Part shown: piece by piece, positions 25,716 through 37,354 of the stretch
How positions within the stretch are numbered: the first letter of the stretch is position 1
How the letters are laid out: each line of letters starts with the position of its first letter
Assembly: GCA_021846045.1 (NCBI GenBank)
Contig: JAJZCM010000015.1
Span: forward strand, 1-37,354
Direction of reading: 5' to 3'
Length of the DNA: 37,354 nucleotides
From: a bacterium
GTDB taxonomy: Bacteria; Elusimicrobiota; Elusimicrobia; UBA1565; UBA9628
Notes under the pieces: generated by a model
What the model was told of the DNA's origin: nothing
Databases searched by the model: none
The model's input: only the letters and a program-made list of their open reading frames with translations
Program-made: the position numbers and the translations under genes

Positions 25716-25847
25716 AAAAACCTCCTAAGACTGCGACCAATCAGGGCCTTAATTCTCAAATTACGACCCTAGCTTGATTATACAATTTTACCTCAATTCA
25801 ATATTCCGCAGCCCGTGGTGATGAGCCATGGTATACTATTTGTGTCT

Positions 25848-27332
25848 ATGACGAAACTCGATCTCGAAACGCTCAAGAGTCACTTGTGGGAATCGGCGAA
25901 TATTCTCAGAGGCAGCATTGACGCTTCCGACTACAAGAACTATATCTTCGGCCTGCTGTTTCTCAAAAGGCTGTCCGATGTTTTTGATGAGGAAGCCGAA
26001 AAGTTGATCAAGGAGGGCAAGAGCAAGAAAATCGCCTTCGAGGAAGAGGACGAGCACGAATTTTTTGTTCCTGCGAAGGCTCACTGGAAGCATCTCACCA
26101 CGCTAACCCAGAATCTTGGTGACGCCCTCAACAAGGCCAACGACCAGCTTGAAGAGCATAACCGATCTCTCGAGGGCGTTCTCTCGGCTACCGACTTTAA
26201 CGACAAGGACCGGCTTCCCGATAGCGCTCTCTCAAGACTGATCGTTCATTTTTCAAACATTAATCTTCGCAATGAAAATCTTGCCGAGCCGGACATGCTT
26301 GGCCGCGCCTATGAGTATTTAATCGCGCAATTTGCCGATGACGCGGGTAAAAAGGGCGGCGAGTTCTACACTCCAAAAGAAGTTGTCAGCTTACTGGTTG
26401 ATATCCTTGATCCCCAAGAAGGCATGTATGTTTGCGATCCGGCTTGCGGTTCAGGCGGTATGCTGGTTCAGGCCGTGCATCATCTAAAATCCCTTCATCA
26501 GAACGCGAAAAACATCGTGCTTCACGGCCAAGAGAAAAATATCGGCACCTGGGCCATCTGCAAGATGAATATGCTCCTTCATGGAATTTCAGGGGCGCGA
26601 ATCGAGAAGGGCGACACCATCCGGGAGCCAAAGCTTCTTCAGAAGGGGAAACTCGTCGAGTACGACATCGTCATCGCGAACCCTCCCTTTTCGCTTAAGA
26701 ACTGGGGCGTTGAGTCCGCCGAAAACGACGCCTTTGGCCGCTTCAGATACGGATTGCCGCCGCAGAGTTACGGCGACTTCGCCTTTGTCCAGCACATGAT
26801 CGCGACCTTAAAGCCCTTTGGCCGCGCCGGCATCGTCTTGCCGCATGGCGTACTCTTTCGCGGCGGGGCCGAAGGCAAGATCAGGCAGGGCCTCATTGAG
26901 GAAGATTTGATCGAGGCGGTGATCGGCCTGCCCTCGAATATATTTTCCGGAGCCGGTATCCCGGTCTGTCTATTCATCTTGAACAAGAAAAAACCGGCGC
27001 AGAGAAAAGGCAAGGTTTTCTTTCTGTATGGGGCGCGAGACTTTAAGCAACTTAAGAGCAAAAACGAGTTAAGGCCGGAGGATATCGATAAGATCGTCAA
27101 GGCCTATCGCTCTTGCGGAACCGCTGAGAAATATTCGAGGCCGGTCAGCTTGGATGAAATTCGCCGCAATGACTATAACCTCAACATTCCTCGCTACGTT
27201 GATATCACGGAAGACGAAGCGCCGATTGATGTCCAGCAAACAATCAACGATTTGATCGTGTTGAAAAAAGAGCGCGCGCAGGCCGAGGAAAAAGTCGAGG
27301 GGTATCTTAAGGAGCTGGGGTACAAGGCATGA
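25848..27332 (+). CDS. hsdM: Type I restriction-modification DNA methyltransferase subunit HsdM
   Basis: MTKLDLETLKSHLWESANILRGSIDASDYKNYIFGLLFLKRLSDVFDEE; GRAYEYLIAQFADDAGKKGGEFYTPKEVVSLLV; VCDPACGSGGML; DIVIANPPFSLKNWG (NPPF). Confidence 0.95.
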   Translation: MTKLDLETLKSHLWESANILRGSIDASDYKNYIFGLLFLKRLSDVFDEEAEKLIKEGKSKKIAFEEEDEHEFFVPAKAHWKHLTTLTQNLGDALNKANDQLEEHNRSLEGVLSATDFNDKDRLPDSALSRLIVHFSNINLRNENLAEPDMLGRAYEYLIAQFADDAGKKGGEFYTPKEVVSLLVDILDPQEGMYVCDPACGSGGMLVQAVHHLKSLHQNAKNIVLHGQEKNIGTWAICKMNMLLHGISGARIEKGDTIREPKLLQKGKLVEYDIVIANPPFSLKNWGVESAENDAFGRFRYGLPPQSYGDFAFVQHMIATLKPFGRAGIVLPHGVLFRGGAEGKIRQGLIEEDLIEAVIGLPSNIFSGAGIPVCLFILNKKKPAQRKGKVFFLYGARDFKQLKSKNELRPEDIDKIVKAYRSCGTAEKYSRPVSLDEIRRNDYNLNIPRYVDITEDEAPIDVQQTINDLIVLKKERAQAEEKVEGYLKELGYKA

Positions 27333-27341
27333 GGAAGAAGC

Positions 27342-28145
27342 ATGTTATTTTTTATTGACGAAAGCTGGCAGCTGTCGGCTGACAAAAAGCACAAAGCGGG
27401 AGTTTTGTGCGCGATTCCCATTGACAGCCAGAATTTCAACGACTTTTCAGTCCAATTATTCAATCTCAAGAAAAAACATCTTGGATTTGAGGGCGGCAAC
27501 TTGGAAATCAAAGGGCACAAATTATTACAGCGTTACTACTTTAAGTTAGAGAAAAAATTTCAGGATAAAAGCGTCCAGCTCAACCTAGCGCGGGACATAT
27601 TGTCTCTGTGCGAAAAGAGCGGCCTCAAGGCTTTTGCGACCGTTACTTTTCCTAAAGAAGAGTTGGATTTGGCCTGCGCTAACCCAAACCAATTGGAGAG
27701 GCCATTTTTCTTTCTATTCGAGCGGATTAATCAATTCATGAGGGAAAATCACACCGACATGATTGCCAAACTGGTCTTCGATGATCGCGACGTTAAAACG
27801 AACAATCGCATATCGGCCAGCGTTAGTAATTTCCTTCACAAATCGCATGTAGGGAAATCGTTCGATCGCATATTGAAGGTCCCATTATTCGCCATTTCGA
27901 AGGAAAATGCGGGAATTCAGATGGCGGACATTTGCGGCTATATTATCGGCAGATGGTTTACGGGGGACAATGGTGAGATTTCCCAATTTTTCCGAAGGGT
28001 TGAATCTTTTCAATATGTGAGCGCGGAATTGGTCGGCAAGTTGCCCAACGGCGATCCCTGTCCTTTAAAAGGAATAAAAGTGATCAAAAAAGAACGGGCC
28101 GATCGTAAAAACATACCAATCGGCCCGGATTCTGATGAAGACTAA
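27342..28145 (+). CDS. DUF3800-like protein (first in the island)
   Basis: MLFFIDESWQLS start; KLVFDDRD mid motif; NAGIQMADICGYIIGRW C-terminal motif typical of DUF3800 proteins. Confidence 0.75.
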   Translation: MLFFIDESWQLSADKKHKAGVLCAIPIDSQNFNDFSVQLFNLKKKHLGFEGGNLEIKGHKLLQRYYFKLEKKFQDKSVQLNLARDILSLCEKSGLKAFATVTFPKEELDLACANPNQLERPFFFLFERINQFMRENHTDMIAKLVFDDRDVKTNNRISASVSNFLHKSHVGKSFDRILKVPLFAISKENAGIQMADICGYIIGRWFTGDNGEISQFFRRVESFQYVSAELVGKLPNGDPCPLKGIKVIKKERADRKNIPIGPDSDED

Positions 28146-28295: not shown

Positions 28296-29816
28296 ATGAC
28301 GAAAAAATATGCGCATCCCCTTGAGGAGAATCCATTATTCGGATCATTGCCGATCGAGCTTTCAGAAAACATCCGTTCCATAAATCCCTGGTGGAGAAAC
28401 GAGCCATTTCCTGATTTGCCGAAATTTCATCGTTGGGTATTCAAGCGATTAAAGCATCTGCTTGATCAAGGCATGACCCCGGCTACGGTTTTGCGCGGGC
28501 CGCGCCGAGTTGGGAAAACCATATTGATCAAGCAAATCATTCAGGACCTTCTCGACGCCGGGGTCCCGTCCGGCCATATCCTTTATGTCCCATTTGATGA
28601 GCTTCCATCCCTCCAAGGAATCCAAGAACCGGTGTTGGCGGTGGCGCGCTGGTTTGAAAGGGAGATTATAAAATCTTCCTTCAACGCTATCGGCAAGACC
28701 GCGCAGCCGGCGTATCTTTTTTTCGACGAAGTTCAAAATTTGGAATCTTGGGCGCCCCAAATAAAAAATCTTGTGGACAATCACTCAATCCGCGCCCTCA
28801 TTACCGGCAGCTCGTCTTTGCATATCGAAGCGGGCCGCGACAGTTTGGCCGGACGCATCACGACCGTTGATTTGGGCCCGCTGTTTCTTCGGGAGATTGC
28901 CGAGCTTAGATTCGGGGAAGCGACCGGCCCATTTTGGGGCGACAACGGGTTGGACAAGATCGTCCAGCGCGATTTCTGGATGCAGGCCAAGGAGCGGGCC
29001 AAGCAGGAGACGAGCCTACGAACGCAATCCTTTGCCGCTTTTTCCGAACGCGGCGCCTATCCTATCGCGCATGAGAAAGCGAACACTCCCTGGCCGGAAG
29101 TCGCCGATTATCTAAACGAAACCGTCATCCAACGGGCTATTCAGCATGACCTGCGCATAGGAAGCAGGGGACAGAAGCGGGATGAGAAACTTCTGGAAGA
29201 AGTCTTCCGTCTGTGCTGCCGCTACGCCGGACAAGCCACGGGGCAAAGGGCGTTTGTTCCAGAAATTCGTCAAGCGTTGTCCGGCAATATCGGCTGGAAT
29301 CGGGTTCTTAACTATTTGCGTTTCCTCGATGGGACGCTGCTGATTCGCTTGATTAAGCCGCTAGAACTTCGACTGAAAAAACAGAAATCGCCGCCTAAAA
29401 TCTGCCTTTGCGATCATGCTCTGCGGGCAAGCTGGCTTCAGGAAGTCGTGCCCTTAGATCCAACCGGATTGTCTCAGAATCCGCATCTGACGGACTTGGC
29501 CGGCCACTTGGCCGAGAGCGCCTTGGGTTATTTCCTGGCTTCCATCCCGAACTTGGATACGGCCTATTTCCCGGCCCGCGCCGCCGAGCCGGAGGTGGAC
29601 TTCGTCCTGACGGTGGGGACCAAGCGCATTCCCGTCGAGGTGAAGTATCGCAAGCGCATCGATCCCCACGATGACACCGTGGGTTTGCGGGCGTTTCTTG
29701 AGAAGTCCGCCTATAATGCGCCGTTCGGCCTTCTTGTGACCTTGGATGATGATGTTGCCGTGTTGGACCCGAGGATTATTCCAATTTCGCTTTCTTCGCT
29801 ACTGTGGTTGAAATAG
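28296..29816 (+). CDS. AAA_14/DUF4143-type ATPase
   Basis: TVLRGPRRVGKTILIKQIIQDLL (Walker A), YLFFDEVQNLESWAPQIKNLVDN (Walker B), ALITGSSSLHIEAGRDSLAGRITTVDLGPLFLREI, C-terminal EVDFVLTVGTKRIPVEVKYRKRI. Confidence 0.9.
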   Translation: MTKKYAHPLEENPLFGSLPIELSENIRSINPWWRNEPFPDLPKFHRWVFKRLKHLLDQGMTPATVLRGPRRVGKTILIKQIIQDLLDAGVPSGHILYVPFDELPSLQGIQEPVLAVARWFEREIIKSSFNAIGKTAQPAYLFFDEVQNLESWAPQIKNLVDNHSIRALITGSSSLHIEAGRDSLAGRITTVDLGPLFLREIAELRFGEATGPFWGDNGLDKIVQRDFWMQAKERAKQETSLRTQSFAAFSERGAYPIAHEKANTPWPEVADYLNETVIQRAIQHDLRIGSRGQKRDEKLLEEVFRLCCRYAGQATGQRAFVPEIRQALSGNIGWNRVLNYLRFLDGTLLIRLIKPLELRLKKQKSPPKICLCDHALRASWLQEVVPLDPTGLSQNPHLTDLAGHLAESALGYFLASIPNLDTAYFPARAAEPEVDFVLTVGTKRIPVEVKYRKRIDPHDDTVGLRAFLEKSAYNAPFGLLVTLDDDVAVLDPRIIPISLSSLLWLK

Positions 29817-29823
29817 AAAACGT

Positions 29824-30027
29824 ATGACGCTTCAAGAATTTCGAGAATCACTGCTCGACCAAACCCTGACCTTTCTCTGGCGGCAATGCTCGGCTTTGGA
29901 AATGAGTCGCTATGAGCCCAGGCTTTCGACCGCAGGACTCCCGTCCGATCTGCAACAAAAGACCGCGCTAAAACTGTTGAGCAACATTTTTGGATTAGAA
30001 TATGGCGAACCAAGTCACCACGCTTAA
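29824..30027 (+). CDS. Small 67-aa ORF overlapping the hsdS start; possibly a truncated remnant
   Basis: MTLQEFRESLLDQTLTFLWRQCSALEMSRYEPRLSTAGLPSDLQQKTALKLLSNIFGLEYGEPSHHA; follows the ATPase by a few bp and overlaps 30002..31249. Confidence 0.4.
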   Translation: MTLQEFRESLLDQTLTFLWRQCSALEMSRYEPRLSTAGLPSDLQQKTALKLLSNIFGLEYGEPSHHA

Positions 30028-31249
30028 GATGGAGCAAAAGTTCAAGAAAACTCCCGCCGGGGAGATTCCGATGGATTGGGATGTCGTCAAATTGGGTGAT
30101 ATATCAATTCAACCGGAAGAGCGATTTGTCCCTGTCCCGGGAGATGCCCGTCCTTACATTGGCCTCGAACATATTGGTAGTGGTACCGGACGTCTATTAT
30201 CCACTGGAACCTCCACGACGGTATCAAGTCTGAAGTCAATTTTTCGGGCAGGAGACATTCTTTTTGGAAAATTGCGCCCAAATCTGAAAAAGGTTGTCAT
30301 GCCTCCGTTTGCTGGAGTATGTTCCACTGACATTATGGTCATCCGACCCAAGGATGGATTCTCCCGATCTTTCATGTTCTACCGTCTTCAATCCGCAACA
30401 GCGTTCGATTTTGCCGTAGGAACATCGGGCGGCACTAAGATGCCACGGACATCTTGGCCGCTTTTTAGAAATTATGCCTTCCCCTGTCCACATTTAGCCG
30501 AGCAGAAAAAGATCGCCGAGATTCTTTCTACTGTTGATGACGCCATTGAGAAAACCCGCGCCGGCATTGAAAAAAGCAATCAGCTCAAAAAAGGCCTGAT
30601 GCAAACCCTCCTCACCCGCGGCATCGGGCATAAAAAGTTTAAGAAGAGTCCCGCTGGGGAGATTCCGGTGGAGTGGGAACTATTGACCCTTGGGAAAATC
30701 TCTGAGATACGGAGAGGGGCCTCTCCACGGCCAATTGGAGATCCGAAGTTTTTTGGAAATGGACGGGGATGGGTCAGAATTGCAGATGTTACCAGAAGCA
30801 CGAAATTCCTCCGAACAACCGAACAGCAGCTTTCCCATCTTGGTGAAGCTGGCAGCGTAAAAGTGGATCACGGCGACATCATCATGAGCATATGCGCAAC
30901 AATAGGGAAACCTATAATTGTGGATATGGAGGCGTGTATCCATGACGGTTTCGTCCTCTTCGAAAAATTATCGCCACGAATCCTCAAGGAGTTTCTCTAC
31001 TACTTCCTGCAATGGAAAGAGAACTACTTAGCAGGCAAAGGCCAGCCAGGCGCTCAAAAGAACCTGAACACAACAATCGTGGGAGAAACGGAAATACCTC
31101 TTCCTCCTATCAGTCAACAGAAGTATATCGCCGAGATTTTGTCCGCAGTGGATATGGAAATCGAAAAACAAGAATCGGCGCGTATAATACTTCAGAGGCT
31201 TAAAAAGAGCTTGATGCAAGTGCTTTTAACTGGCAGATTACGGATATAA
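30002..31249 (+). CDS. hsdS: Type I restriction-modification specificity subunit HsdS
   Basis: Two target-recognition halves with repeated motifs: KFKKTPAGEIPMDWDVVKLGDI / KFKKSPAGEIPVEWELLTLGKI, and AEQKKIAEILSTVDDAIEKTRAGIEKSNQLKKGLMQTLLT / SQQKYIAEILSAVDMEIEKQ...LKKSLMQVLLT. Confidence 0.93.
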   Translation: MANQVTTLKMEQKFKKTPAGEIPMDWDVVKLGDISIQPEERFVPVPGDARPYIGLEHIGSGTGRLLSTGTSTTVSSLKSIFRAGDILFGKLRPNLKKVVMPPFAGVCSTDIMVIRPKDGFSRSFMFYRLQSATAFDFAVGTSGGTKMPRTSWPLFRNYAFPCPHLAEQKKIAEILSTVDDAIEKTRAGIEKSNQLKKGLMQTLLTRGIGHKKFKKSPAGEIPVEWELLTLGKISEIRRGASPRPIGDPKFFGNGRGWVRIADVTRSTKFLRTTEQQLSHLGEAGSVKVDHGDIIMSICATIGKPIIVDMEACIHDGFVLFEKLSPRILKEFLYYFLQWKENYLAGKGQPGAQKNLNTTIVGETEIPLPPISQQKYIAEILSAVDMEIEKQESARIILQRLKKSLMQVLLTGRLRI

Positions 31250-31260
31250 TTAGAAAATAA

Positions 31261-32277
31261 ATGAAGAAACGCTGGGAGTATCTTCGCCTCCTCGAAATAT
31301 CCTTGCACGCCATACGTTCGGCAATTGACTGCTTTAACCGTGTCTACGATCCCTATAAAATTGAGACGTGCCTGATCCTCATGACGAATGCCTGGGAATT
31401 GTTGGGGAAAGCTATCCTTGTCAAGACAAGAGGTAAGAAAAGTATTCAAAAAGATCGCCACGGCAATACCCTCCCGGCGGAGCAAATAGTCACTAAACTC
31501 CGAAGTTTTGAATTTTTAGATGAGAATCAAGAGCACTGCCTTCAACAAGTTATTTCACTCAGAAACCACGCATCTCATCATCTTCTTCCCGCAATCCCGG
31601 ACGAGGTGCTTCATCACTTGTTTTATTTTGGATGCAAGTTTTATAAAGATTTAGTCGTCAAACAATTTCCAAGACAGCCCAATATACCGAAACAAAACTT
31701 CCTGTCAATCTCATTTGATAATCTAACAACGTATGCAGAAAAGGTCCAGTCGCTCGTTGGAAGGATGAAAAGAAGCAAACAAGATATGCAACTTGTGTGG
31801 CTACTTGAAAGAGGTGTGTGCTTTGATGGCGTGAAATACATTTCGCAGGATCAATTCGAACGGCAATATAAAAATAAACGCAAAGTTTTGCCGCACCTCC
31901 AGGTAGGCAAATTCTTAAAGGACTCTGAGATGATCAGGGTTGTCCTAATTCAAGCCCCTAAAAACTTTACGGCAGACATAACTCTACGCAAGGGGAAACC
32001 AACTGAGTCGGCTCTGCCTGTTGCCATCAAGAAAACTGACTTGGAGAAAGATTACCCATATCTGACCGTAGAAATGGCCAGCAAACTTGGCAAAAGCCAA
32101 AACTATGTAGCCTATACGCTTAAAAAGCTGAATTACAAAGAGGATTCCCGCTATCACCAATCCGTGCGGTCTTCAAAAAGTGGCACTGTCAACCGTTATT
32201 CAGAAAGCGCATTGAATGACCTTAAGAAATTTCTGGATGGAAATCCTGGATTTAATCCTTATGCAAATGAACCCTAG
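31261..32277 (+). CDS. HEPN-like (DUF3644-like) protein with C-terminal helix-turn-helix
   Basis: CLILMTNAWELLGKAILVKTRGKK N-terminal helical region; QQVISLRNHASHHLLP contains R-x4-H (HEPN-type RNase motif); C-terminal TVEMASKLGKSQNYVAYTLKKLNY HTH pattern. Confidence 0.65.
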   Translation: MKKRWEYLRLLEISLHAIRSAIDCFNRVYDPYKIETCLILMTNAWELLGKAILVKTRGKKSIQKDRHGNTLPAEQIVTKLRSFEFLDENQEHCLQQVISLRNHASHHLLPAIPDEVLHHLFYFGCKFYKDLVVKQFPRQPNIPKQNFLSISFDNLTTYAEKVQSLVGRMKRSKQDMQLVWLLERGVCFDGVKYISQDQFERQYKNKRKVLPHLQVGKFLKDSEMIRVVLIQAPKNFTADITLRKGKPTESALPVAIKKTDLEKDYPYLTVEMASKLGKSQNYVAYTLKKLNYKEDSRYHQSVRSSKSGTVNRYSESALNDLKKFLDGNPGFNPYANEP

Positions 32278-32950
32278 ACCTAATTTTAACGAATCCACTC
32301 TCTCTGAAAAACCCGCGATCGAGCAATTGGTCGGCATGGGTTACGCATTCATCCCGGGTGACAAGCTCGACCCGGAGGCAACACGATCCACGCTCGATAA
32401 AGCTGTCCGCCGAACTTTGCAGGGGTGCGTAGCGGCAATCGCTTTCTTGACCGTGTTAGTGGTTTCAGCACGAGCAAACTCTCCCAAGCCAGCTGGTCTC
32501 AGAAACACGACAGAACGCCACACTATTCAAAATCCTACTATGCCGAGCGCATTTGCCCAGAAAAAGGATATACCCGTCAGTCGGGATTCGGCGAACTCAT
32601 CAGCAGAAAAATCCAGCGTTTATGAGACCCTTTTACTCGCCCTCTCCGCGATGGAAGGTATTCTGTTTGCAATGTTGGGTGTTATTGTCCAAGTCGATTC
32701 CGCTCGCTCCCTAAGAATGGGTTCCAAAGTGTTCCCGATTATTCCATACGTATCTTTTGCACTAACAGCCTTCTGGCTCCAAGCATTGTTTCTCATTCCG
32801 TTTGACATCGGACGTCTTAAGCCAGTGTGTGCTTATGCCATATTTACCGTCAGCGTCATCGCAATCGGAGCAATCGCGGTTCGGGCCATCCGCGCACTCG
32901 ATCCTAACCATGTGGTTGACCGAACACTGGATTGGTATTTCAATGAGTAG
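32267..32950 (+). CDS. Fusion of HsdR N-terminal fragment to a ~4-TM membrane protein
   Basis: MNPRPNFNESTLSEKPAIEQLVGMGYAFIPGDKLDPEATRSTLDKAVRR is near-identical to the HsdR start at 35107; then hydrophobic segments QGCVAAIAFLTVLVVSA, LLLALSAMEGILFAMLGVIVQV, FPIIPYVSFALTAFWLQALFLIPF, CAYAIFTVSVIAIGAIAV. Confidence 0.75.
   Translation: MNPRPNFNESTLSEKPAIEQLVGMGYAFIPGDKLDPEATRSTLDKAVRRTLQGCVAAIAFLTVLVVSARANSPKPAGLRNTTERHTIQNPTMPSAFAQKKDIPVSRDSANSSAEKSSVYETLLLALSAMEGILFAMLGVIVQVDSARSLRMGSKVFPIIPYVSFALTAFWLQALFLIPFDIGRLKPVCAYAIFTVSVIAIGAIAVRAIRALDPNHVVDRTLDWYFNE
32282..32412 (+). repeat. Duplicated 5' end of hsdR (copy A, 87-bp internal deletion)
   Basis: 131 bp aligning to 35110-35327 (218 bp). 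60 bp (gcgatcgagc...gctcgacccg) are identical; flanking differences are mostly third-codon; an 87-bp in-frame gap. Confidence 0.9.
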
Positions 32951-34247
32951 CATTGTAGCAACCAGCCGAAAAAGTCAAGCGGCGGATTCTCTAGTAGACT
33001 TGCTCATTCAACTTGCTGTTGGTCGAGAATATCGCACACTGAGGTACTTCTCCGATTCTCTCCTTCGTCGAGTTGAGAATCTTCCAGCAGATCGGGTTAA
33101 AAGAAAAGCCGATCCGCTTATTTTTGCCTTTTCTCAATTTATTCTGGACCCGATGTTCGATGATGAACAGGCTCGACGAACGGTTAATGATCTGTTTGGT
33201 TGCCTTGTCGAGCATCGTGTTGGTCGGATTCCCCAAGGGCTAGATGACATCGACAGGCTGGTATTTAACGGTCTAATTCCTCGGTTCATGATGGCTTCCA
33301 AGACGGGCGACTCCAAAACCATAACTCGCGCGGCCGAGGGCGTTGTCGAGCTTCCACGAATACTTTCCGGTTTCATTATCGCCTCCGATTTGGAAAGATT
33401 TAGAAAGTTGGCCGATTTGTTGCCAGCCCTCTTTCACGACGAACTTAAGAATCGGAGCTACGTCCAATTTCAACTGGCCTCGGCAAATCTCATAGACGCG
33501 CTGTCTGCCTGGCAGCGGATGGAAAACTCAAAAGCTGAATTTACGCCGCATGTTGAGCAATTGCTTCGCGCCATGATCGCCGTCCAGAAAATTTTATTGG
33601 AGAACTCGAATGGCCCCGAAGTAGTAGGGCCTCTGGCGGACAATATTCTTGCGGTTATGCGCGCGCTCATCAAAATAGAGTACGAGGAGAAAATGTTCCC
33701 AGTCGCACTGAACGCCCTTAAATCCGAGTGTGACGCGATCGACAAATACCCCAGTCTAAGACCGCATCTCTTTGCCGATCTTGAGAATCATGCGTCCCTA
33801 GCGGCACAATATGCCGATCCGAAAGACTTCCGATCAGTTCTTCAATATTGGTCTCTTGCAATGAGGGATGGCTTCCCGCAAGATTTGTACTCGAGATTTG
33901 TGGGTCTAGTCGCGCAACATTGCGACAAACAAAGAATTCTTGATGTCGCAATCCAATTCGCATCGAAAGAATTCCATTTTCTTGTTACTGAACCTGCCCA
34001 AAAAATTTATCCTCAATTTTACCAATACCCCTTGTTTGTTGCCGCCTTGGGAATCGAAAGCAAAGCGACATTCCCTGAAGATTTCAGCAAATTGACCAGA
34101 GCTATTATGGAGCGCCTGCAGGGTCTGGAAAGGACCACACAAGAGGCTGTTCGGAAGAATATCCGGACACTTTGGCGTGAAATGGTCAATGCGGACATGA
34201 GCGATGAGGACTACGATCGGGTATGGGAAAAGCTTCTCGCAATTTAA
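32944..34247 (+). CDS. All-helical protein of unknown function
   Basis: 434-aa ORF from MSSIVATSRKSQAADSLVDLLIQLAVGREYRTLRYFSDSLLRR...; start overlaps the membrane-protein stop (ATGAGTAG). Helix-rich, no family recognised. Confidence 0.7.
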
Positions 34248-34978
34248 TGTTTCAGAATAATTTGGATTCGCCACTCTCTGACCTGAATAAAAACGAAAAA
34301 ACAGGGGGAACTTCGGCTTATCGCTACATTTTCTTGGATGAGGGCGGCAATCTTGATTTTTCTCCAAGCGGAACAAAATATTTTACGCTGACGACTATCA
34401 CGACAAGTCGGCCGTTTTTGCTCTATGGGCCGCTGTCGGACCTGCGCTACGATTTAATAGAGTTTGGGCTCGATATTGAGCATTTTCATGCCGCAGAAGA
34501 CAGGCAAGCCGTTAGGGATAAGGTTTTCGCCGAAATCACCAAGGCCATGCCCGACCTTAGGATCGACTCCCTTATCGTTGAAAAAAGCAAGACCGTCCCG
34601 GCGTTGCGCACGGTTGAGCAATTTTATCCAGGGATGCTGGGATATTTGCTGAGGTATTTGTTCAGGGGGAAGGCGATAGGGAATTGCGATAAGGTCATCG
34701 TCATTACTGATTCCTTGCCGGTGAACAAAAAGCGCCAAACTATAGAAAAGACCGTCAAAATAACCTTGGAAAGGATGTTGCCGGCGCAAACTCCTTTCTA
34801 CCTGTTGCACCATGCTTCAAAGGCTTGTCTCTACCTGCAAGTCGTCGACTATATCAACTGGGCCATTTTCCGCAAGTGGGAAGGAAGCGACCGGCGTAGC
34901 TATGACTTGATCTCCGGAGGGATACAAAGCGAATATGATATTTTTAAGAAGGGAACGACCTATTACTACAAAAAGTGA
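34247..34978 (+). CDS. DUF3800-like protein (second in the island)
   Basis: YRYIFLDEGGNLDFSPSGTKYFTLTTI; KVIVITDSLPVNKKRQTIEKTVKITLERMLP; HHASKACLYLQVVDYINWAIFRKWEGSDRRSYDLI. Start overlaps the upstream stop (TAATG). Confidence 0.75.
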   Translation: MFQNNLDSPLSDLNKNEKTGGTSAYRYIFLDEGGNLDFSPSGTKYFTLTTITTSRPFLLYGPLSDLRYDLIEFGLDIEHFHAAEDRQAVRDKVFAEITKAMPDLRIDSLIVEKSKTVPALRTVEQFYPGMLGYLLRYLFRGKAIGNCDKVIVITDSLPVNKKRQTIEKTVKITLERMLPAQTPFYLLHHASKACLYLQVVDYINWAIFRKWEGSDRRSYDLISGGIQSEYDIFKKGTTYYYKK

Positions 34979-35106: not shown

Positions 35107-37354
35107 ATGAATCTTAACGAATCCACCCTCTCCGAAAAGCCTGCGATCGAGCAATTGGTCGGCATGGGTTACGCATTCATCCCGGGTGACAAGCTCGACC
35201 CGCAGGAAACTGAGAGTCCCGAGCGCAACTCCCGTCGCGATGTTGTTCTAGTGGACAGGCTTCGTCGAAAACTTGCCGAGCTTAACCCTGAGGCGACCTC
35301 GTCCACGCTCGACAAAGCTGTCCGCCGCGTCACAAATATTGTGGGCACGGATATTCTCGATGAGAATAAGAGCTTTCATAAGGACCTGATCTCGAATGTG
35401 ACTATTGAGCAGGAAACCAACGGCCGCCCTTTCCGGCGAGAGGAGAATGATCCGCGCCTTCAAGGACAGGGGCCCCTTGGCCCCCGGCGAGGCCAGACCG
35501 TTCAATTCATCGACTTTGATAACCCGGAGAAAAATGAGTTTCTGGTTGTGAGCCAGTTCTGGGTCAAGGGACCTCGGCTTTCAGATCGGCCTGATATCGT
35601 GATCTTTGTCAATGGAATCCCGCTGGCCGTCATTGAATGCAAAAGCCCGATTGCGAAAGAGACGGGCATTATTGACGCCCTAGAACAGCTTGCGCGCTAC
35701 CAGCGGGAAATTCCGGCGCTTTTTCGCACGAATCAGCTTCTCATCGGCGCGAACCTCTTTGGCGCCAAATACGGAGTCGTGGGCGCGAGCCCCGATAATT
35801 TCCACGAATGGAAAGAAAAGCCGGAAGAAAAGTTGCCGAACTTGAGCGAGCATCCATCGGTTAAGGAGATGCTGGCGCTTAAGCTAATCAAGAAGGGTGA
35901 CTTGCCCAAGACGCCGGCGGCCCAAGACGTTCTCATCGCGGTTCTCTTTAACAAGCGGAACCTCTTGGACATTATCCGCAACTTCATCGTTTTCGACATG
36001 GACGAAGGAAAAATTCGGAAGAAAATTTGCCGCTATCAGCAGTTTACAGCCGTGCAAAAAATAGTTCATCGCGTCCTTGATGAAAAAGAGAAAAAAGGCA
36101 TCGTCTGGCATTGGCAGGGATCTGGGAAATCTCTCACCATGCTCTTTGCCGCCTTGAAGCTCCGGCGAGAAGAGGCGCGGCTCAAAAACCCTTGCTTTCT
36201 CGTGGTCACGGATAGGCGAGACTTGGATAAGCAGATTTCGGACAACTTTCGCGACTGCGGCTTTCCCAATCCCATCCGCGCGGAAAATTCGCGTGAGCTT
36301 TACGCGATGCTTTCCAATGGCGTCGGCCAAACGATCATGACGACGGTGCAGAAGTTTAGAACGCCGCTCAACAAGCCGCTCTCGGAAGCCAAGAATATCA
36401 TCGTTTTGACCGATGAGGCGCACCGGACCCAATACGGCAATTTCGCTCTTAATCTCAGAAAGGCCCTGCCCAACGCCTCCTTTTTCGCCTTCACCGGAAC
36501 GCCGCTGGATAAGCGCTACCGCAACACCTATCGGCTTTTTAGCCCCGAGGGCGAGAGATACCTCGACAAGTACGGTATCATTGAAGCCGAGAAAGATCAG
36601 GCGACTGTCCCCATCAAATACATGAGCCGCCTGGTCAATCTTCAACTCGTTGGCGCGTCTTTAGATTCATTGCTTGCGGGACTTTTCCCCGGTAAAAATA
36701 AGAAGGAGCTGGTGGAGATTAAACGGCAGTACGCAACGCCCGACGTTTTGGCCAGCGCTCCCCAACGCATCAATCGGATCGCCATGGATATTGTTGAGCA
36801 TTACAGCCAGGCGATTAAGCCGAACGGATTTAAGGCGATGATTGTCGTTGAAACCCGGGAGGCGGCTGATTTATACAAAAAGGCCCTGGATCGGCTCATC
36901 AACCCCAGTCTCTCCGCAGTTGTCATGACCGTCAACCGTGGCGAAGAATGGGCCGAGAAGTACGCCCTATCGGATGTTGAAGAAAGCGCTATCAAGGACC
37001 GCTTTAACGATCCCAAGAGCAGTCTCAATTTTCTAATCGTCTGCGACAAGCTTTTGACCGGCTTTGACGCCCCCATTCTTCAAGCGATGTATCTGGACAA
37101 GCGCTTAAAAGAGCATACCTTGCTTCAGGCGGTAGCGCGGACCAACAGAACGTATCCGAGGAAAAATTTCGGCCTGATCATTGATTACGCCGGGCTTGGC
37201 AAAGAATTGGCCGACACGCTCAAAGAATTCAGCGCCGAGGATATTGAGGGACTTTTCCGGACCGACGACGTCGAGCGCGAGTTAAGCGATCTCGGCGATT
37301 ATCACAGGGAAGCTGTAAAATTTTTTTCGGGCATTTCGCTGGATGGAGAGCCAA
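35107..37354 (+). CDS. hsdR: Type I restriction endonuclease subunit HsdR (partial, continues beyond window)
   Basis: Not in the ORF track because no stop lies in the window. ATG 35107: MNLNESTLSEKPAIEQLVGMGYAFIPGDKLD...; PD-ExK-like DIVIFVNGIPLAVIECKSP; GIVWHWQGSGKSLTM (Walker A); IIVLTDEAHRTQYG (DEAH); FFAFTGTPLDK; LLTGFDAPILQAMYLDKRLKEHTLLQAVARTNR. Confidence 0.95.
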   Translation, partial: MNLNESTLSEKPAIEQLVGMGYAFIPGDKLDPQETESPERNSRRDVVLVDRLRRKLAELNPEATSSTLDKAVRRVTNIVGTDILDENKSFHKDLISNVTIEQETNGRPFRREENDPRLQGQGPLGPRRGQTVQFIDFDNPEKNEFLVVSQFWVKGPRLSDRPDIVIFVNGIPLAVIECKSPIAKETGIIDALEQLARYQREIPALFRTNQLLIGANLFGAKYGVVGASPDNFHEWKEKPEEKLPNLSEHPSVKEMLALKLIKKGDLPKTPAAQDVLIAVLFNKRNLLDIIRNFIVFDMDEGKIRKKICRYQQFTAVQKIVHRVLDEKEKKGIVWHWQGSGKSLTMLFAALKLRREEARLKNPCFLVVTDRRDLDKQISDNFRDCGFPNPIRAENSRELYAMLSNGVGQTIMTTVQKFRTPLNKPLSEAKNIIVLTDEAHRTQYGNFALNLRKALPNASFFAFTGTPLDKRYRNTYRLFSPEGERYLDKYGIIEAEKDQATVPIKYMSRLVNLQLVGASLDSLLAGLFPGKNKKELVEIKRQYATPDVLASAPQRINRIAMDIVEHYSQAIKPNGFKAMIVVETREAADLYKKALDRLINPSLSAVVMTVNRGEEWAEKYALSDVEESAIKDRFNDPKSSLNFLIVCDKLLTGFDAPILQAMYLDKRLKEHTLLQAVARTNRTYPRKNFGLIIDYAGLGKELADTLKEFSAEDIEGLFRTDDVERELSDLGDYHREAVKFFSGISLDGEP
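35110..35327 (+). repeat. 5' end of hsdR (copy B, intact) of the duplication
   Basis: Aligns to 32282-32412 except for an extra 87 bp (caggaaactgagag...cttaaccct). Confidence 0.9.

Follow-up and report, generated by a model that had tools for sequence, protein, structure and literature searches.

The window, by which we mean the whole stretch of 37,354 nucleotides analyzed here, is one entire contig of an Elusimicrobiota genome assembled as 2.0 Mb in 93 contigs. It carries a type I restriction-modification (RM) operon with cargo genes in both gaps between its hsd genes. Its features are:

25815–27332, + strand: hsdM, type I methyltransferase subunit (N6_Mtase and HsdM_N in Pfam; TIGR00497 over its cut-off).
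27342–28145, + strand: DUF3800 protein in the hsdM–hsdS gap (PF12686, E 3.8e-12).
28296–29816, + strand: AAA_14/DUF4143 ATPase in the hsdM–hsdS gap, not an ABC ATPase (Pfam; PADLOC PDC-S01).
29824–29899, + strand: 5′ remnant of a cargo gene, 76% identical to a gene found in the hsdM–hsdS gap of sister genomes (sequence comparison).
30002–31249, + strand: hsdS, specificity subunit, matched by Methylase_S in two stretches (PF01420, E 1.3e-35).
31261–32277, + strand: gene for a DUF3644 HEPN protein of 338 aa (open reading frame (ORF), Pfam, PADLOC, alignment and structure model).
32216–32950, + strand: ORF that starts within the DUF3644 gene, crosses the hsdR 5′ copy and continues into hydrophobic stretches; no family match (ORF list, Pfam).
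32267–32392, + strand: incomplete second copy of the hsdR 5′ end (93% identity across 101 nt, then a further piece; 86% protein identity).
32802–34247, + strand: large ORF in the hsdS–hsdR interval; no family in Pfam, NCBIfam or PADLOC (ORF list).
34223–34978, + strand: second DUF3800 protein, upstream of hsdR (Pfam, PADLOC).
35107–37354, + strand: hsdR, restriction/translocation subunit, cut by the contig end (ORF, homology).

The DUF3644 ORF begins with an ATG at 31261, 11 nt past the hsdS stop, and ends with a TAG at 32275–32277; its coordinates are as given in the first-pass annotation, a reading made from the DNA letters before this analysis. That annotation also placed the gene between hsdS and hsdR. 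This description holds, with one refinement. Downstream, the next hsdR-like frame (32267 onward) is only a truncated 5′ copy; three more cargo ORFs intervene before the start, at 35107, of the hsdR that continues to the end of the window. The single operon holds two DUF3800 genes, one per hsd gap (27342–28145 and 34223–34978).

The 338-aa protein had been likened to DUF3644 and is a member of that family: Pfam matches PF12358 to residues 9–163 with E 1.9e-20 and 73.6 bits, over the curated cut-off of 27.6. DUF3644 is the sole Pfam family over cut-off. The Pfam matches contain no ABC ATPase, in line with what had been noted from the sequence, and no other P-loop family; likewise, no REase domain was detected in the protein. 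Nine PADLOC models match it (best E 1.8e-23), all belonging to one candidate defense family, PDC-S19, a name under which our literature search found no paper; NCBIfam has no family for the protein. The predicted layout is a HEPN bundle at residues ∼1–140, a low-confidence middle at ∼141–250, and a winged helix at 261–327.

An AlphaFold2 model built from 71 sequences (mean pLDDT 78.7, pTM 0.65) supports this layout. Residues 1–140 are helical and confidently predicted, with R101 inside a helix spanning residues 88–105 and H106 just beyond its end. The poorly predicted middle reaches its lowest confidence at residues 184–228, and residues 261–327 are again confident (pLDDT mostly >90), ending in the helix-helix-strand-strand-helix order of a winged helix. 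In a Foldseek comparison the first 27 rows are all HEPN or HepT-like, with probability up to 1.00 and weak E-values (0.04 upward). A second structure aligner ranks 2hsb (Z 13.5), 6m6u (12.9), 5yep (12.4), 7ae2 (11.8; a HEPN toxin with a mutated H107) and the sacsin HEPN domain (11.4) highest, and warns that helical bundles may score about Z 13 through arrangement alone. A profile search against solved structures returned HepT toxins in three of four rows, at E 0.15 or worse. Because helical bundles can reach such Z-scores, the HEPN assignment rests jointly on the HEPN-filled top rows, the conserved motif described below and the published assignment of the family. Taken together, these lines confirm the predicted product of the DUF3644 ORF as a HEPN-fold protein. 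The HEPN four-helix bundle that the first-pass annotation had anticipated thus tops both fold comparisons, and the HTH-like C-terminal segment that it had noticed is part of the high-confidence winged helix, which matches RacA/MerR-type DNA-binding domains (Z 7.4 to 6.6, second aligner).

The protein is very divergent. Protein searches of genome contigs, viral contigs, 97 related genomes, plasmids and phages found no close relatives, only partial matches at ∼35% identity or less. Homologues were gathered from two contig sets (genome, searched with a profile from a tighter alignment, and viral), from plasmids and phages, and from related genomes; of these, 125 distinct sequences of at least 220 aa were aligned. 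The window protein shares at most 25% identity with any sampled relative and forms the longest end branch of the family tree (2.49). Its segment LRNHASHH contains R101-x4-H106, the HEPN signature originally proposed, and this is not a chance occurrence: R101 is present in all 125 homologues and H106 in 124, the one exception being a frameshifted frame (L086). A second motif, E46-x3-K50, is nearly as constant (E46 95%, K50 95%), and 97% of homologues have N or D at the residue following R101. Both features agree with published descriptions of HEPN motifs, in which an E-x3-[KR] motif occurs in many families and a polar residue follows the motif R (PMC3710099). Other near-invariant positions are N26 (98%), A44 (99%), L49 (98%) and A51 (98%); at position 49 the window protein has a G. 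That so divergent a protein retains these residues indicates that the active site is under selection. Neither a missing HEPN bundle nor an R/H pair lost in homologues, the two outcomes that the first-pass annotation had named as counting against it, was observed.

Nesting of the gene in a type I operon, as first described for the window, recurs in other Elusimicrobiota, in a Phycisphaerae genome and in an archaeon. We classed genomic context through homology to the window's own hsd proteins, so that a locus without a type I neighbor is one where none was detected. The order hsdM-hsdS-DUF3644-hsdR occurs in three loci of the same phylum (L068, L071 and L072) and in one from Phycisphaerae (L110), and a Thermoplasmatales archaeon (L133) has hsdS-DUF3644-hsdR. 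The order hsdM-hsdS-DUF3644 is found in L090, L100 and, at a contig end, L070, and L076 has hsdM-hsdS-hsdR-DUF3644. In L079, L097, L115 and L138, as also in L100, hsdS or hsdR directly adjoins the DUF3644 gene. Further arrangements, resting partly on looser matches, are hsdR-hsdM-DUF3644-hsdS (L091), hsdR-hsdM-DUF3644 (L116 and L125) and hsdM-DUF3644 (L141).

In many of these loci the adjoining hsd genes are co-directional with the DUF3644 gene. Six loci may share a 4-nt overlap with the neighboring hsd gene (L079, L097, L100, L133 and, presupposing a GTG start, L110 and L115). Among 80 genome contig loci, seven of the eight strictly labelled as type I have the two genes within 35 nt of one another, which favors operon membership over loose clustering in an island. 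The hsd partners themselves differ: hsdR or hsdM is only 24–36% identical between the window, the L068/L071/L110 group, L076 and L100, indicating that this is not one travelling operon. By comparison, the hsdR genes of L097 (Desulfovibrionaceae), L110 and L133 are 55–68% identical, suggesting that in this case hsdR and the DUF3644 gene probably crossed phyla and domains as one module. Traced on the family tree, linkage to type I genes requires eight changes, gains or losses, of which at least six are forced by starred branches, with L069 not counted as type I-linked; a broader label that adds L091, L116, L125 and L141 requires 11, at least nine of them forced.

No type I neighbor was detected for most sampled family members. 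Examples are a temperate phage member beside an integrase (L019), a Streptococcus satellite member beside a cI repressor and an integrase (L020), and members on plasmids. The many DUF3644 proteins of this kind imply that the family need not depend on an RM guard. In three loci (L084, L088 and L122) a gene for a protein of ∼1100 aa, with a similar N-terminus, lies close to the DUF3644 gene. One of the three shares its strand and the other two are on the opposite one; this larger protein presumably resembles DUF499-type proteins.

The operon's cargo has been exchanged, as three related genomes (L169, L170 and L171) illustrate. All three have an orthologous hsdMSR operon (hsdM 85–88% and hsdR 76–78% identical) without a DUF3644 gene, showing that the RM complex does not need DUF3644. 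Their hsdM–hsdS gaps each contain, along with a second gene, a nucleotidyltransferase-like gene, for which both of the genomes tested gave a weak DUF6036 match below cut-off. The window retains 76 nt of that second gene at 29824–29899 (76% identity), which implies that the cargo in its own hsdM–hsdS gap was replaced. The hsdS–hsdR gaps of the three genomes also differ from one another, encoding a 295-aa protein in L169, proteins of 306 and 616 aa in L170, and 257-aa, 442-aa and Schlafen/AlbA_2 proteins in L171. Two of these contain an R-x4-6-H string near the C-terminus: IRSELSHG in the 442-aa protein, which has no Pfam HEPN match, and IRNNGSVHHG in the 616-aa protein, which has a weak Apea-HEPN match (E 0.15) elsewhere in its sequence. 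Possibly these are other HEPN proteins in the same slot, but we regard this only as a lead. The hsdS–hsdR site has been called a potential recombination hot spot (PMC12255303).

The window shows its own trace of rearrangement at this site. A direct repeat of the hsdR 5′ end (32267–32392 and 35107–35330) brackets ∼2.8 kb of cargo. In a self-comparison of the window, 32282–32383 repeats the hsdR 5′ end at 93%; an internal stretch is missing from the upstream copy, which continues, after 101 nt at this identity, with a shorter piece. The ATG of this copy (32267) overlaps the stop of the DUF3644 gene by 11 nt, which suggests that hsdR once directly followed the DUF3644 gene. Judging from this one genome, the 2.8 kb that hold the other ORFs would most simply have arrived together with a second hsdR 5′ end.

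We propose that the DUF3644 protein is a fail-safe, abortive-infection RNase that is co-produced with the RM system, and give this reading a probability of about one half; that it would cut RNA, abort infection and be controlled by the RM complex is modeled on HEPN relatives and PrrC. What we observe computationally is a HEPN fold, conserved catalytic-type residues, a winged helix and recurrent co-directional nesting beside the hsd genes of several type I lineages. A putative HEPN RNase encoded in RM operons is well supported; its guarding by the RM system we infer. The protein would be a metal-independent HEPN endoribonuclease made in one operon with the type I complex. In the uninfected cell it would be kept quiet, most likely through association with HsdMSR or through DNA contact via its C-terminal winged helix. 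Infection that disables or overloads restriction would set off the HEPN domain, probably as a dimer, and cleavage of host or viral RNA would then stop growth and abort the infection.

R/H conservation, recurrent nesting, the 4-nt overlaps, the divergence of the hsd partners and the PrrC precedent all support the fail-safe reading. It is weakened by the many sampled members with no detected type I neighbor, some of which sit beside a phage or satellite integrase or repressor, by the sister operons that lack the gene, and by the readiness of type I operons to take up unrelated defense genes (DarTG2 and TgvAB). Members lacking a detected type I partner, together with TgvAB, which works independently, cast doubt on obligatory guarding in particular, and our sequence analysis found no feature marking an HsdMSR-binding surface. 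A more specific version is an NTPase-less guard RNase. Direct contact with HsdMSR, or with DNA via the protein's winged helix, would silence its HEPN domain until anti-restriction proteins set it free, a form of control that divergent bacterial and archaeal type I systems would have acquired repeatedly. We advance this version tentatively, and consider it less likely than not.

The main rival, a serious contender that we nonetheless hold to be short of even odds, is that the protein is an autonomous, single-gene abortive-infection HEPN RNase with its own means of sensing, for example the winged helix. The gene would then be cargo in the hsdS–hsdR hot spot, co-expressed with the RM system but not regulated by it. 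PADLOC's treatment of the family as a defense candidate agrees with this, as do the phage, satellite and plasmid homologues without a detected type I neighbor. The differing cargo of both hsd gaps in the sister genomes, the hot-spot description of the site and the reported function of TgvAB without HsdR (PMC11411939) point the same way. Nevertheless, starts and stops overlap those of hsd genes in several phyla, and the gene is linked time and again to type I systems that are themselves divergent; both suggest more than random cargo, although tight spacing could also be selected after insertion at a hot spot. Our sequence data cannot separate the fail-safe RNase from autonomous cargo.

The gene might also serve as a stability (addiction) module, in which the RNase, by killing or arresting any cell from which the RM operon is lost, would stabilize the operon rather than oppose phage. 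Such an effect would presumably also follow from a toxin that the RM complex holds, and the cargo of the operon is clearly exchanged. We consider this unlikely, given that no RM partner was detected for the family members in phages and satellites and that the sister genomes keep the operon without DUF3644. Least probable by our estimate is a non-catalytic HEPN regulator of the hsd operon that binds RNA or, through its MerR/RacA-like winged helix, DNA: some HEPN domains without the motif, MtlR among them, have been proposed to bind RNA but not cleave it (PMC3710099), but here the catalytic-type R and H almost never vary over 125 very divergent sequences.

The fail-safe reading has a precedent in PrrC, a HEPN RNase encoded in a type I operon (PMC3710099, PMC12707154). 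The functional analogy between PrrC (with EcoprrI) and the window protein, a putative HEPN RNase, is that the gene for each lies within a type I hsd operon. PrrC fuses an ABC ATPase to a C-terminal HEPN domain, whereas the window protein has no ABC ATPase, an N-terminal HEPN domain and a winged helix. Moreover, PrrC is silenced by the RM complex, is released by an anti-restriction protein and cuts a tRNA anticodon loop; the window protein is a putative counterpart in these respects. RloC is likewise a HEPN RNase with an R-x4-6-H motif that acts in second-line defense, but it has its own ABC ATPase and has been described as unlinked to an RM system (PMC3710099). HepT/MntA (HEPN-MNT) provides the closest solved HEPN folds. 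The toxin's motif residues, R102 and H107, have their counterparts in R101 and H106 of the window protein; two residues past the catalytic H, the toxin has Y109 and the window protein L108; no MNT antitoxin gene is adjacent in the window, and Pfam found no nucleotidyltransferase (MNT) family among the operon genes tested. DarTG2, which is embedded in a type I RM operon in the same hsdS–hsdR gap (PMC12255303), and TgvAB, which protects independently of HsdR from within a Vibrio type I operon (PMC11411939), are also accessory defense genes, of unrelated protein families.

The nearest comparison is with the DUF3644/EC042_2821 family itself (PF12358, PDC-S19), with which the window protein shares the HEPN R-x4-H motif, the winged helix and the RM operon context. 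It differs in its great divergence, its origin in Elusimicrobiota and the lack of a detected REase domain, which some EC042_2821 members have. DUF3644 was listed in 2013 as a HEPN family with a conserved motif, wHTH fusions and an RM operon context, and PrrC-like control was proposed for RM-linked HEPN families in general (Anantharaman et al. 2013, PMC3710099). The first-pass suggestion of a distinct, RM-guarded HEPN RNase is borne out in part, as to HEPN fold, R/H motif, DUF3644 membership, winged helix and type I nesting, but the idea is not new. With this locus, a family already described in 2013 gains a new and very divergent member. What our analysis contributes is the recurrence of the nested gene order in different phyla, the overlaps with hsd genes, the divergence of the type I partners and the existence of sister operons without the gene. 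Complexes of HEPN RNases with RM systems were predicted in 2022 to be widespread, with none characterized beyond E. coli PrrC (PMC9296519). The DUF3644-hsd loci make this prediction testable in a simpler form than PrrC, a small single protein with no ATPase domain, and such a test can draw on the short overlaps with hsd genes, on type I partners of divergent lineages and on sister operons from which the gene is naturally absent.
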